From positions 62,001-126,000 of the forward strand of contig NZ_KI440837.1 of assembly GCF_000474945.1 (NCBI RefSeq): a stretch of DNA of 64,000 nucleotides, given 5' to 3'. How positions within the stretch are numbered: the first letter of the stretch is position 1; each line of letters starts with the position of its first letter. The position numbers and the translations under genes are program-made. Source of the stretch: Solimonas soli DSM 21787. GTDB taxonomy: Bacteria; Pseudomonadota; Gammaproteobacteria; Nevskiales; Nevskiaceae. The notes beneath the pieces were generated by a model. That model searched no databases. It saw only the letters and a program-made list of their open reading frames with translations, and was not told the DNA's origin. Of this stretch, positions 25,363 through 30,648 are shown in pieces.

Positions 25363-25980
25363 TCAATACCAGTGATAGTTGAAGCTGATGCTGATGCGGT
25401 CCTCGTCGACGCGGCTCGCCGGCACCTCGTGGCGCAGCCAGCTCTCGAAGAGGATCACCTGCCCCGCCTTCGCCGGATAGACGATATGCGGCTGCTGTGC
25501 CGCCGCACCCGGCTTGCGCGGCGGCGCCGCCATCAGCTGCGCCAGGCGCGGGTCCTCGAACTTCAGACCGCTGCAGCCCTTCGGCGTCTGCACGTAATAG
25601 GTTCCACTGACCACGGCCTGCGGGTGCAGGTGGAAGCTGTGCGCGCAGCCGCGCGGCATGATGTTGATCCAGCAATCGGTCATCTGCAGGCGGCCGCCGC
25701 GGAGGTTCCACTGCAGGGCGCGGGCATAGCGCTTGACGTGGCCGTCGAGGCGCTCCTGCAGGGTCACGAAGGTCGACGAGAAGCCGTGCAGGCGATCGAG
25801 CGAACCGTAGCTCGTGTAGCCGAACGGATAGTTGGGCTGCGACCATTTGCGCCCGGCGGCATCGTGGTCGCGGATGCGGTAGCACTCGTCGCGCAGCTCG
25901 GCGTTGAAGGCGCGCAGGCCTTCGGCCTGCAGCCGCTCGCTGTAGATCAGCGTGGGAAACCAGGCCTGCACGCTCGCCAT
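25363..25980 (-). CDS. Putative 2OG-Fe(II) oxygenase (TIGR02466-like)
   Basis: A 205-residue protein resembling the putative 2OG-Fe(II) oxygenase family TIGR02466. It opens MASVQAWFPTLIYSERL, has NIMPRGCAHSFHLHPQAVVS followed by GTYYVQTPKG (a double-stranded beta-helix core), GLKFEDPR, and ends with LFESWLRHEVPA and RISISFNYHWY, where the distal iron-binding His and a 2-oxoglutarate-binding Arg are expected. The HxH in place of the textbook HxD is common in this family, so the exact iron ligands are unclear. Substrate unknown. It lies after panD but beyond a terminator, so it is probably not in the pan operon. Confidence 0.75.
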   Translation of the reverse strand: MASVQAWFPTLIYSERLQAEGLRAFNAELRDECYRIRDHDAAGRKWSQPNYPFGYTSYGSLDRLHGFSSTFVTLQERLDGHVKRYARALQWNLRGGRLQMTDCWINIMPRGCAHSFHLHPQAVVSGTYYVQTPKGCSGLKFEDPRLAQLMAAPPRKPGAAAQQPHIVYPAKAGQVILFESWLRHEVPASRVDEDRISISFNYHWY

Positions 25981-25999
25981 CACCGCTTCGCCCCCTACG

Positions 26000-26025
26000 A
26001 AAAAGGGGGCAGCAAGCTGCCCCCT
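26000..26025 (-). terminator. Intrinsic terminator after panD
   Basis: On the minus strand AGGGGGCAGC, two bases, GCTGCCCCCT, then TTTT: a 10-bp GC-rich stem followed by a U-run, about 22 bp past the panD stop. Confidence 0.8.
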
Positions 26026-26047
26026 CCTGAAAATGCCCCGTCCCGCG

Positions 26048-26437
26048 TCAGGACGACGCGGCGAGCTGGACCGGAATCGTATTCGCCGTGCGCACCACGC
26101 GGTTCTTCTCGTCGAGATAGACCAGGCGCGGCTGGTAGACGCGCGCGGCGGCGGCGTCCATGTCGGCATACGCGCAGATGATGACGCGGTCACCGACGCC
26201 GGCCTTGTGCGCCGCGGCACCGTTGACCGAGATGATGCCCGAGCCCGGCTCGGCCTTGATGGCGTAGGTCGTGAAGCGCTCGCCATTGGTGATGTTGTAG
26301 ATCTGGATCTGCTCGAATTCGAGGATGCCGGCGAGTTCGAGCAGCTTCGAGTCGATGGCGCAGGAGCCGTCGTAATCCAGCTCAGCGTGGGTCACACAAG
26401 CACGATGCAGCTTGCATTTCAGCATGTGCAATTGCAT
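26048..26437 (-). CDS. panD: Aspartate 1-decarboxylase
   Basis: PanD makes beta-alanine from L-aspartate for pantothenate, using a pyruvoyl group formed by self-cleavage. The 129-residue protein starts [20 protein letters not shown], and the cleavage site is Gly24-Ser25 in DYDGSCAID, exactly where E. coli PanD is cut. Catalytic Thr57 and Tyr58 correspond to the [12 protein letters not shown] segment, and [20 protein letters not shown] completes the family core. The start has GAGG 7 bases upstream. It has its own promoter and a structured leader with two hairpin copies (see below), although panC is directly upstream. Confidence 0.96.
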
Positions 26438-26460
26438 GGAGGGCCTCTTTGGAGATGGTG

Positions 26461-26498
26461 AACCGCCGGCGGCCCAAAAAGACATACGCGCGACGATT
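26461..26498 (-). ncRNA. Cis-regulatory hairpin, proximal copy, panD leader
   Basis: In the mRNA: stem AATCGTCG, bulged C, GCG; 15-nt loop TATGTCTTTTTGGGC; then CGC and CGGCGGTT. That is 3 bp, one bulged base, then 8 bp (two G-U pairs). It ends 23 nt before the panD ATG, next to the ribosome-binding site. The same loop and bulged stem occur upstream of panB (28448-28483). Confidence 0.75.
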
Positions 26499-26515
26499 GC
26501 AAGTATTAACAAAGG

Positions 26516-26542
26516 CGGGCGGCCCACTAAGACATACGCCCG
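26516..26542 (-). ncRNA. Cis-regulatory hairpin, distal copy, panD leader
   Basis: In the mRNA: CGGGCG, 15-nt loop TATGTCTTAGTGGGC, CGCCCG (6-bp stem, no bulge). It lies 17 nt upstream of the proximal copy. The loop is nearly identical in all four copies of the element. Confidence 0.75.
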
Positions 26543-26548
26543 GCGCCC

Positions 26549-26562
26549 GTGACCCAGGTCAC
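26549..26562 (-). promoter_or_regulatory. Small hairpin at the start of the panD leader
   Basis: GTGACCTGGGTCAC forms a 5-bp stem with a CTGG loop close to the predicted transcription start. The panB leader also begins with a GC-rich hairpin. Confidence 0.4.
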
Positions 26563-26578
26563 AGAGCTGGAGGCCGCG

Positions 26579-26606
26579 ATTCTAGCCCATTTCGTTCTAT
26601 GGTCAA
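26579..26606 (-). promoter_or_regulatory. Promoter of panD
   Basis: TTGACC (26601-26606), a 16-bp spacer and TAGAAT (26579-26584) just after the panC stop. The same -35 and spacing are used for panB. The predicted leader is about 135 nt. Confidence 0.75.
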
Positions 26607-26615
26607 CTCGTTTGG

Positions 26616-27464
26616 CTATAGCTCGAGCAGGCCGATATTGTCGATCAGCCGCGTATTGCCGAGAAAAGCCGCCAACAGGATGCGAAAGTCCCGGTCTGCA
26701 GCGACGGGCTCGCTCAGGTCCGGACGCCGGACGGTCACATACTGCGGACGAAAGCCGGCCGCTTCCAGCGCGGCCGTCTCGCGCGCGCACAGCGCCGCGA
26801 AATCGCGCTCGCCGCGCCGCAGGGCGTCGGCGATGCGGCGCAGGCCGGCATACAGCTGCGCCGCCTGCGCACGCTCCTGCGGCTGCAGGTACTGGTTGCG
26901 CGACGACAGCGCGAGGCCGTCCGGCTCGCGCTCGGTCGGCACGCCGACGATCTCGATCGGCAGATGCAGATCCTCGACCATCTGCCGGATCACCAGCAGC
27001 TGCTGGTAATCCTTCTCGCCGAACAGCGCCACGTCCGGCGTGACCAGATTGAGCAGGATGTTGACGACCGTCGCCACGCCGTCGAAATGCCCGGGCCGGA
27101 AATGACCTTCGAGCACGTCGGCATAGCGCGGCACGCTGATGGTGGTGAAGCCGTCGCGGCCGCGCGGGTACATCTCGGCGACGCTCGGCGCGAACAGCAG
27201 GTCGCAGCCGGCCGACGCGAGATGTGCGGCGTCGGCGGCCAGGGTGCGCGGATAGCGGTCGAAATCCTCGTTCGGACCGAACTGCAGCGGATTGACGAAC
27301 ACGCTGGCGACGACGCGCTCGGCGCGCGCGCGTGCCGCTTCGACCAGCCGCAGATGCCCGCGGTGCAGATTGCCCATGGTCGGCGTCAGCGCGATGCGCG
27401 CGCCCTCGCGGCGCCAGGCGTCGAGCTGCGCGCGCAGCTCGGCGATGCTGTGGACGGTCTTCAT
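26616..27464 (-). CDS. panC: Pantothenate synthetase
   Basis: PanC joins pantoate and beta-alanine using ATP. The 282-residue protein (E. coli 283) carries [20 protein letters not shown] (the PMGxLHxGH nucleotide motif), [50 protein letters not shown] and the KMSKS-like [10 protein letters not shown]. The ATG at 27462-27464 starts [13 protein letters not shown]. It is 16 bp after panB and clearly in the same transcript. panD follows after a 178-bp gap with its own promoter. Confidence 0.97.
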
Positions 27465-27480
27465 CGCGCCGGCATGCGCC

Positions 27481-28377
27481 TCACTTCTTGCGCCGCGCGG
27501 CGACCTTCGCCGTCGGCAGCTTCATGGCCTTGGGTTCCGGCGACTGCAGCGTCAGCGGCAGATCGAAGCTGTGCTCGGCGTCCGGATAGGCGCCGGACTT
27601 GACCTCGGCCACATACGCGCGAATCGCCGCTTCGATGCTCGCCGCGCCGTCCATGTAGTTCTTGACGAAACGCGGCTTGCGGCCGAGCGTGACCAGCGGC
27701 GAGATGTCGAGGATGTCCTGCAGCACGAGAATCTGCCCGTCGGTCGACGGCCCGGCACCGATGCCGATCACCGGCACCGGCGAAATCTCGGTGATGCGCC
27801 GTCCGAGTTCGGAGGGGATGCATTCCAGCACCAGCAGATCGGCGCCGGCTTCGGCGAGCACCTTGGCGTCATGCAGCATCGCCTCGGCCGCCGCGTCCTC
27901 GCGGCCCTGCACCTTGAAGTTGCCCATCTTGTGCACGAACTGCGGCTGCAGGCCGAGATGCGCGCAGACCGGCACGCCGCGCACCGCCAGATACTCGACG
28001 ATGCTGGCCTGCTCGCGGCCGCCTTCAAGCTTGACCATCTTGGCGCCGCCTTCCTGCATCAGGCGCTGCGAGGCGTCGAGCGCGCGCTCCAGCGTCGCGT
28101 AGGAAAGAAACGGCAGGTCGGCGACGAGGAAGGCGCGCTTGAGCTGCGGCGCCACGCACTTGCTGTGGTAGACGACCTGATCGACCGTGACCGGCGTCGT
28201 GGTGTTGCCGCCCTGCATGACCATGCCGAGCGAATCGCCGACGAGGATGACGTCGACACCGGCGCGATCCTCGACCAGCGCGAAGCTGGCGTCGTAACAG
28301 GTCAGGCTGGCGATCTTCTCGCCGGCCACACGCATGCGGCGCAGCTCGGCGACGTTGATCGGCTTTACAGTTTCCAT
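27481..28377 (-). CDS. panB: 3-methyl-2-oxobutanoate hydroxymethyltransferase
   Basis: PanB adds a hydroxymethyl group from 5,10-methylene-tetrahydrofolate to 2-oxoisovalerate, the first committed step to pantothenate. The 298-residue protein has [31 protein letters not shown] (metal-binding Asp), the [13 protein letters not shown] segment, MVKLEGG, and [18 protein letters not shown] near 205-222. The start [19 protein letters not shown] is an ATG at 28375-28377 preceded by GGGGAG. It uses 2-oxoisovalerate from the ilv genes and a folate cofactor; folK is the next gene upstream. The 219-bp leader holds a promoter and a tandem hairpin pair. Confidence 0.97.
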
Positions 28378-28447
28378 ATCAGGGCTCCCCGAAAACGCCC
28401 GTTGCGCCGACACGCTCAGTGAACGGAAGCGGACGCTTTCGATGGAG

Positions 28448-28483
28448 AACGCCGGCGGCCCACCAAGACATACGCACGGCATT
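28448..28483 (-). ncRNA. Cis-regulatory hairpin, proximal copy, panB leader
   Basis: In the mRNA: AATGCCG, bulged T(U), GCG; 15-nt loop TATGTCTTGGTGGGC; CGC, CGGCGTT. That is 3 bp, one bulged base, then 7 bp. It shares loop length, bulge position and stem logic with the panD proximal copy, while several stem bases differ with pairing kept. Confidence 0.75.
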
Positions 28484-28498
28484 CAGAGGCGATGGTGG

Positions 28499-28525
28499 CG
28501 GGCGGCCCACAAAGGCAGACACCCG
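28499..28525 (-). ncRNA. Cis-regulatory hairpin, distal copy, panB leader
   Basis: In the mRNA: CGGGTG, 15-nt loop TCTGCCTTTGTGGGC, CGCCCG (6 bp with one U-G pair, no bulge). It is the panB counterpart of the panD distal copy; two pyrimidine/purine loop positions differ. It lies 15 nt upstream of the proximal copy. Confidence 0.7.
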
Positions 28526-28527
28526 TG

Positions 28528-28561
28528 GCGCCGCGGCCGGCCGGCCGGCGGAGCGCGGCGC
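28528..28561 (-). promoter_or_regulatory. GC-rich hairpin at the start of the panB leader
   Basis: GCGCCGCG and CGCGGCGC form an 8-bp stem around a (CCGG)n-type loop directly at the predicted 5' end of the panB transcript. Confidence 0.4.
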
Positions 28562-28589
28562 AGTGTAGCCAATCCGCCCGAGCGGTCAA
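28562..28589 (-). promoter_or_regulatory. Promoter of panB-panC
   Basis: TTGACC (28584-28589), a 16-bp spacer and TACACT (28562-28567), immediately after the folK stop. Same design as the panD promoter. Predicted leader about 178 nt. Confidence 0.75.
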
Positions 28590-28596
28590 CCCGGGA

Positions 28597-29073
28597 TCAT
28601 TCCCAGGGCGCAAGGCCTTCGGCACCGAGCGCCGCCGCCGCGTCGGCGATGCGGCCGACGCCGGGCACGACGAGATCCGGCGCGATTTCCGCCCACGGCC
28701 ACAGCACGAAGCTGCGCGCGGCGATACCTGGATGCGGCAGGCGCAGGCCCGGCGTATCGAGCGTGACGCCGTCGACATGCAGCAGATCGAGATCGAGCGT
28801 GCGCGGCCCCCACTTCACGCTGCGGATGCGCCCGGTCTTGCGCTCGATCGCCAGCAGCGCCTCCATCAGCGCCGCCGGCGTCAGCGGCGTGCGCAGGATC
28901 GCCACGGCGTTGCAGAAGTCGGGCTGGCCGGCCGGCCCCATCGGCGCACTGCGGTAGAGCCGCGAGCGCGCTTCGATGTCACCGAGCGCGGCGAGCGCGG
29001 CGACGGCCCAGCGCAGGCGCGCCGCGGGATCGCCGAGATTGGCGCCGAGCCCGATATGCGCCCGTGCGCTCAC
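28597..29073 (-). CDS. folK: 2-amino-4-hydroxy-6-hydroxymethyldihydropteridine pyrophosphokinase
   Basis: FolK transfers pyrophosphate from ATP to the pterin in folate synthesis. The 158-residue protein matches the family length (E. coli 159) and has AHIGLGANLGDP (6-17), LYRSAPMGPAGQPDFCNAV (about 39-57) and the signature WGPRTLDLDLLHVDG near 88-102, containing the two Mg-binding aspartates, then LPHPGIAARSFVLWPWAEI. The GTG start (29071-29073) overlaps the pcnB stop in GTGA. panB, whose enzyme uses a folate cofactor, is next downstream. Confidence 0.96.
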   Translation of the reverse strand: MSARAHIGLGANLGDPAARLRWAVAALAALGDIEARSRLYRSAPMGPAGQPDFCNAVAILRTPLTPAALMEALLAIERKTGRIRSVKWGPRTLDLDLLHVDGVTLDTPGLRLPHPGIAARSFVLWPWAEIAPDLVVPGVGRIADAAAALGAEGLAPWE

Positions 29074-30572: not shown

Positions 30573-30648
30573 GCTCCTATCGTCTAGAGGCCTAGGACGG
30601 AGCCCTCTCAAGGCTTAAACCCCGGTTCGAATCCGGGTAGGAGCGCCA
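30573..30648 (+). tRNA. tRNA-Glu (anticodon CUC)
   Basis: A 76-nt cloverleaf: acceptor GCTCCTA pairs with TAGGAGC, D-arm GTC/GAC, anticodon stem GAGCC/GGCTT, loop CTCTCAA with anticodon CTC at 30607-30609, T-stem CCCGG/CCGGG around TTCGAAT, encoded G-CCA end. CUC reads GAG only, and the sequence is otherwise close to the E. coli tRNA-Glu(UUC) pattern. It has its own promoter and terminator. Confidence 0.96.

Follow-up and report, generated by a model that had tools for sequence, protein, structure and literature searches.

A tandem hairpin element ahead of panD and panB in Nevskiaceae as a candidate cis-regulatory RNA of pantothenate synthesis

The window analyzed here, a stretch of 64,000 nucleotides (nt) from Solimonas soli DSM 21787 (contig NZ_KI440837.1, positions 62,001 to 126,000), carries the pantothenate genes panB, panC and panD on its reverse strand (Table 1), and a 25-nt hairpin occurs twice in the panD leader and twice in the panB leader. 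We consider this tandem element a candidate regulatory RNA; its two hairpins are called H1 and H2, and a further hairpin closer to the 5' end is called H0. A first-pass annotation had described a promoter of the form TTGACC-16-TAGAAT and two hairpins in a 178-base-pair (bp) gap between panC and panD. Gap and promoter were both recovered (panC end at 26616, panD start at 26437, promoter at 26606-26579). Its description also holds for the hairpins with their 15-nt loops, the 17-nt gap between them and the 23-nt distance to the ATG, including the 3 bp, bulged base and 8 bp of the second panD hairpin, which were also obtained with RNAfold. It had further counted four copies in the window, and the other two are those of the panB leader. 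Its betaproteobacterial host has to be corrected to Gammaproteobacteria, Nevskiales, Nevskiaceae, according to the NCBI placement of Solimonas flava, a species of the same genus. A promoter scan of 25950-28700 returned just two sites (0.4 expected), one ahead of each hairpin pair.

Table 1. Genes, predicted promoters and hairpins of the pan locus, in positions of the window
Feature	Position	Strand	Basis and remarks
panD, aspartate 1-decarboxylase	26048..26437	-	Pfam PF02261, 2.9e-48
panC, pantoate-beta-alanine ligase	26616..27464	-	Pfam PF02569
panB, ketopantoate hydroxymethyltransferase	27481..28377	-	Pfam PF02548 (match given 27481-28374)
panD promoter TTGACC-16-TAGAAT	26579..26606	-	promoter scan
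panB promoter TTGACC-16-TACACT	28562..28589	-	promoter scan
H0 of panD leader, 5'-proximal hairpin, GTGACC-TG-GGTCAC core	26545..26567	-	RNAfold of leader; sequence variable among relatives
H1 of panD leader, GGGCG-[UAU]-GUCU-(UAGU)-GGGC-CGCCC	26517..26541	-	R1 model 50.9 bits, 1.4e-8
H2 of panD leader, GCGCG-[UAU]-GUCU-(UUUU)-GGGC-CGCCG, bulged base and long lower stem	26461..26498	-	R1 42.4 bits; RNAfold; lower stem conserved
H0 of panB leader, GC-rich 5'-proximal hairpin	28529..28560	-	folding; weak in own genome, z -0.9
H1 of panB leader, GGGUG-[UCU]-GCCU-(UUGU)-GGGC-CGCCC	28500..28524	-	R1 41.3 bits
H2 of panB leader with long lower stem	28447..28484	-	R1 44.2 bits; RNAfold of unit alone z -3.47

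The pattern TMTGYCTTNNTGGGCCG has exactly four exact matches in the 4.19-Mb genome, all of them in the panD and panB leaders of the window, and if two mismatches are allowed, 13 further genome sites appear versus 14 for the reversed pattern. The consensus of the unit is GGGYG-[YAU]-GYCU-(UNKU)-GGGC-CRCCC, that is, an outer stem of 5 bp, three bulged nucleotides (mostly YAU), an inner stem of four pairs (G-C, U.G, C-G and U.G) and a UNKU loop. The conservation that the first-pass annotation ascribed to the 15-nt loop is thus borne out, but not the description as unpaired, because the inner stem and the bulge lie inside it. In 118 rows the bulge reads UAU (60), CAU (49), UCU (6), AAU (2) or CAC (1), and the loop apex UAGU (47), UGGU (27), UUUU (25), UUGU (9), UAUU (6), UCGU (3) or CAAU (1). 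Two natural variants have an apical loop one base longer, UUCGU (L019:3249) and UCCGU (L210:1904), and the latter copy has an ordinary 3-nt bulge in the model alignment and is no bulge-length variant. When single copies from the window were folded, the unit fold came out as the best structure three times and once as the centroid; both hairpins also appear in the lowest-energy structure of the complete panD leader. As the z-scores of the four copies (-0.31, -1.65, -0.14 and -3.47) illustrate, folding energy is by itself weak evidence, and the case rests on conservation and covariation.

For homology searches, the covariance model R1 with 33 positions was built from the 80 copies of alignment A1 (80 of 101 rows, with 8 chance matches and 13 near-duplicates left out); R1 matches the panB leader at 28449-28481 and 28496-28528. 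A second alignment, A2, holds 121 rows, including one probable chance member (L102:4474), and covariation was measured on its 111 distinct rows. Across these, 96.7% of the cells are paired, and the covariation score of 0.152 exceeds the 0.094 of shuffled alignments (reached by 0 of 500) as well as the values for slid partners (at most 0.117), so that stem positions do covary among the homologues. The fourth pair of the outer stem is C-G in 53 rows, U-A in 34, U.G in 23, A-G in one and C.A in none (Fisher value 1.9e-13, which is descriptive since the sequences are related). Because U.G is kept and C.A never occurs, and RNA tolerates the former and not the latter, a bias that a DNA dyad would not have, the alignment indicates that selection acts on the RNA. 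The inner stem is paired in every row with letters, with one pair varying from U.G to C-G.

The model was then searched against 58 genomes of the family, giving 145 matches at E<=0.01 in 56 of them. Every one of the 145 is on the sense strand and at most 250 nt upstream of a pan gene, panD in 109 cases and panB in 36; the scatter over the genomes that would have spoken against the first-pass annotation was not seen. These 56 genomes are the same 56 in which panD is present, and the other two (G017 and G031) lack both gene and motif, which may mean auxotrophy or assembly loss. In addition, no panB match was obtained in G017, and all that G031 shows of panB is a short piece at the end of a contig. 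Exactly two copies precede panD in 53 of the 56 genomes, and in the remaining three, G042, G010 and G036, one copy reaches the threshold and a weaker second match was found (E 0.2, 0.03 and 0.02, respectively). Before panB there are two copies in 18 of the 56 genomes, about a third of the family, and none in 38. For this placement 55 of 65 panB matches were used. The fragment in G031 was omitted, as were nine diverged panB paralogues; these second panB-like genes, with 30-53% identity and in nine family genomes, have no motif match at E<=0.01.

Beyond the family, 41 genomes of the order yielded strong matches in 16 family members and in G428, which belongs to another family of the order, and no match better than E 0.02 in the other 24. 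A search restricted to panD loci, which is a more sensitive control than the searches of class and phylum, was made with the 9 weakest of 39 panD matches left out; it detected two copies in 11 of 11 loci of the family and G428 and no match at E below 1 in any of 44 loci from elsewhere. A spread through the Gammaproteobacteria was rejected, as 369 genomes of the class gave, besides the own genome, two single weak matches (E 0.012 and 0.015) in loci of about 3 kb without a pan gene, and 398 genomes of the phylum gave one single weak match (E 0.005; L264), with strict filters in both searches that could miss diverged relatives. An exact-pattern scan of genome contigs served as a source of copies and not as a census, since chance alone would give some 120 matches in 257 Gb if bases were uniform; among the matches listed, 32 of 119 stretches carry pan genes. 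The records CAJCJI010000531.1 (titled Verrucomicrobia) and CAJCJH010000085.1 (titled Rhodospirillales) carry the Nevskiaceae element, and their titles look wrong. Two Nevskia-type loci have a membrane-protein-like gene between panB and panC (L117:1982-3520 and L130:1314-3116), and panB lacks the motif there; this open reading frame was the only one seen when looking for a regulator gene at this place, for which no profile search was made.

A comparison of the leaders revealed three features that the first-pass annotation did not contain. The 28 nt ahead of H1, here called the H0 stretch, fold in 57 leaders with a mean z of -1.86 (37 of 57 at p<=0.1), close to the -1.82 of H1, and three control stretches give -0.17, 0.19 and 0.39. 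The mean pairwise identity is 0.30 for the H0 stretch and 0.87 for H1, and H0 is hence conserved in shape, not in sequence. With a 36-nt version of the test the mean z of 55 leaders is -1.33, and the window's own panD and panB leaders reach -0.3 and -0.9; the case for H0 rests on the relatives, because the own leaders fold weakly there. The second feature is a long conserved lower stem, which is confined to H2: it has on average 6.2 pairs versus 4.5 in shuffled flanks and at least 4 pairs in 55 of 55 leader pairs versus 69% of the shuffles, whereas the lower stem of H1 equals the shuffles (4.45 versus 4.29 pairs). The 55 leader pairs, and probably also the 57 leaders of the H0 set, include one probable chance pair (the second L166 pair). 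The third feature is the spacing of H1 and H2, which is 46-53 nt with 49 as the mode.

In 35 leaders with a recognized panD start, the own one included, a promoter-like site scoring at least 8 of 12 is present in the same stretch in 26, compared to 11% of mononucleotide shuffles. Its -10 box most often starts 40-43 nt ahead of H1, which presumably places H0 at the 5' end of the transcript or close to it. As is general for cis-regulatory leader RNAs, a conserved and covarying structure is thus found 5' of the gene behind a predicted promoter. In the window (26549-26562) and in five relatives (L020, L033, L066, L070 and L107), H0 coincides with a CRP-like dyad TGTGA-N6-TCACA directly after the -10 box, which is either a matter of the fold only or a lineage-specific operator, and in other leaders the H0 dyad is unrelated to a CRP-like site. 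Just after panD, a 9-bp GC-rich inverted repeat with a 2-nt loop, followed by TTTTT, was noticed by eye at 26000-26024; owing to this short loop it is not in the list of the terminator scan. From this repeat, panD is probably monocistronic and the downstream 2OG-Fe(II) oxygenase-like gene (PF13759) separate.

Our preferred interpretation, to which we give about even confidence, is a Nevskiaceae-type cis-regulatory RNA for pantothenate synthesis whose hairpins would be binding sites, most likely of a dimeric protein sensing pantothenate or coenzyme A (CoA). In this reading the panD leader, and in roughly one third of the family genomes also the panB leader, presents H0, of any sequence, followed by the sequence-specific H1 and H2; each of these two would be a binding site, and the pair, about 49 nt apart, would be read together. 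A dimeric protein that responds to pantothenate/CoA status is favored as the putative reader, with a ligand as another possibility, because two compact bulged hairpins at a nearly fixed distance resemble sites read by one such protein and because the same has been proposed for the pan motif (Weinberg et al., 2010). The core of H2 ends 24-33 nt before the panD ATG in 34 of the 35 leaders, which would be close enough to hinder 30S loading. A protein on H2, about 12 nt above the purine-rich AAAGAGG that precedes the panD ATG (by eye), may therefore either hinder 30S loading or alter the stability of the message, and H0 would probably be a 5' stabilizer or spacer. Since no T-run was seen behind the hairpins in the leaders of relatives that were inspected, control is probably translational or via RNA stability rather than by a terminator. 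A shared signal on panB(-panC) and panD might balance the pantoate and the beta-alanine branch.

Several observations weigh against this interpretation. The strong covariation signal rests mainly on one outer pair, and the almost invariant inner stem is consistent with, and not proved by, covariation. Of five pair measures, two are unexceptional: the numbers of double-change pairs (3) and of further pair types (8) among the 111 distinct rows are equalled in 45 and 49 of 500 shuffles, and those in A1 in 139 and 374 of 500; owing to the relatedness of the sequences, these counts should not be read as probabilities. When the entire 168-nt panB leader is folded, the two hairpins are absent from its minimum-energy structure. 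Furthermore, the distance from the end of the panB matches to the aligned gene start is 52-212 nt, so direct ribosome blocking fits less well there, and stability control would be possible. The predicted accessibility of the Shine-Dalgarno sequence is middling (mean unpaired 0.39 in the 35 leaders), from which a default-ON state is not evident. The terminator scan gave a weak 5-bp site at 26527-26515 that overlaps H1 of panD (2 found in the stretch, 1.3 expected), the binding partner is putative, and we infer transcription from a predicted promoter.

The main rival is a riboswitch in which H1 and H2, and perhaps H0, directly bind pantothenate, beta-alanine, pantoate, CoA or a precursor. Tandem hairpins that bind a small molecule directly are known from the guanidine-II riboswitch, and the concentration of conservation in the bulge, the wobble pairs and the loop with many invariant positions, the restriction of matches to pan genes and the tandem spacing of 46-53 nt would all suit it. 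A cofactor aptamer of this size would be very small, the apex of the loop differs among the 118 rows and an expression platform is not recognizable, for which reasons we consider a riboswitch unlikely, albeit worth keeping in mind. Somewhat less probable still is its stronger form, a metabolite-sensing RNA with two ligand sites and H0 as part of the fold, which would be the first natural riboswitch for CoA, pantothenate or a precursor.

Hairpins at the 5' end or above a Shine-Dalgarno sequence are common stabilizers, and a structural element for mRNA stability or standby without a specific partner would agree with an H0 that is conserved in shape only. It would leave the nearly invariant loop and bulge and the restriction to pan genes unexplained, and we regard it as improbable. 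Slightly more doubtful is a conserved small RNA that would base-pair with the hairpins. A conserved, accessible-looking sequence near the translation start speaks for it, but conservation is lowest at the loop bases that are most exposed, which makes it less likely; moreover H1 and H2 differ from each other there (AG and UU in the window), and both stem arms are conserved together and 100% paired. DNA operators downstream of the start site, where a transcription factor would bind the inverted repeat of the outer arms or the H0 dyads, several of which resemble TGTGA-N6-TCACA, are very unlikely given the U.G/C.A asymmetry, since in a DNA dyad loss of one half should be as frequent as loss of the other, the variable spacing of 46-53 bp, the 30% identity of the H0 stretches and the bulged lower stem of H2. 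A leader peptide AUG UCU UNK UGG was rejected, because in the most frequent loop (47 of the 118 rows of 33 nt) its third codon would be UAG, and the frame is thus not coding.

The tandem element is a likely and apparently undescribed control of CoA precursor synthesis: in the 58 family genomes it stands only before two enzymes of pantothenate synthesis, a pathway that leads to CoA. CoA is named in a 2022 review as a cofactor that surprisingly lacks a known riboswitch (PMC9971707), and a 2015 paper states that pantothenate biosynthesis had no identified regulation before its work on PanZ (PMC4410942). As culture-collection strains of the family exist (e.g., Solimonas flava DSM 18980), control of the pantothenate supply is directly testable, for a protein and a ligand alike.

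With regard to known RNAs, none of the 4227 families of Rfam 15 reaches its gathering score on the leaders, the whole window gives only a tRNA at 30573-30645, and six matches at E<=10 in 26400-28700 all lie outside the leaders. A published description of the element was not recognized in the open-access literature on pan genes, pantothenate, riboswitches and Nevskiales, and it is probably, not certainly, new in print. The guanidine-II riboswitch (mini-ykkC) likewise consists of two small hairpins with conserved loops joined by a linker, but has another loop and stands before other genes; a loop-loop kissing of H1 and H2 is not suggested by the variable loop bases, which by eye show no complementarity. 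The closest known arrangement is the pan motif RF01749, two simple bulged hairpins, mostly in tandem, ahead of operons with panB, panC or aspartate decarboxylase, an arrangement taken there as a hint of binding by a dimeric protein (Weinberg et al., 2010, PMC2864571). It shares with our element the tandem hairpins upstream of pan genes but is characterized by single bulged A residues (in the alignment and in the hairpins of L261), whereas in the Nevskiaceae unit three nucleotides bulge from one arm, the inner stem is rich in U.G pairs and the loop reads UNKU, and the two conserved single bulged A's were not found in it. Membership of RF01749 was rejected: there is no match in 26400-28700 even at E<=10, and none of 31 family genomes exceeds its cut-off (sub-threshold matches in 4 of 31, best E 1.66), which the Bacillus subtilis control does. 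Conversely, R1 with filters off reached at best E 1.3 on three RF01749 loci, one over and two under the cut-off of that family. By our tests RF01749 thus appears to be an analogue and not a relative in the loci compared. In Escherichia coli, PanD/PanZ mediates CoA feedback as a post-translational protein control (PMC4410942), so the same pathway is controlled at PanD by a protein rather than by an RNA leader. If a protein reads the Nevskiaceae element, the same question arises for the pan motif.
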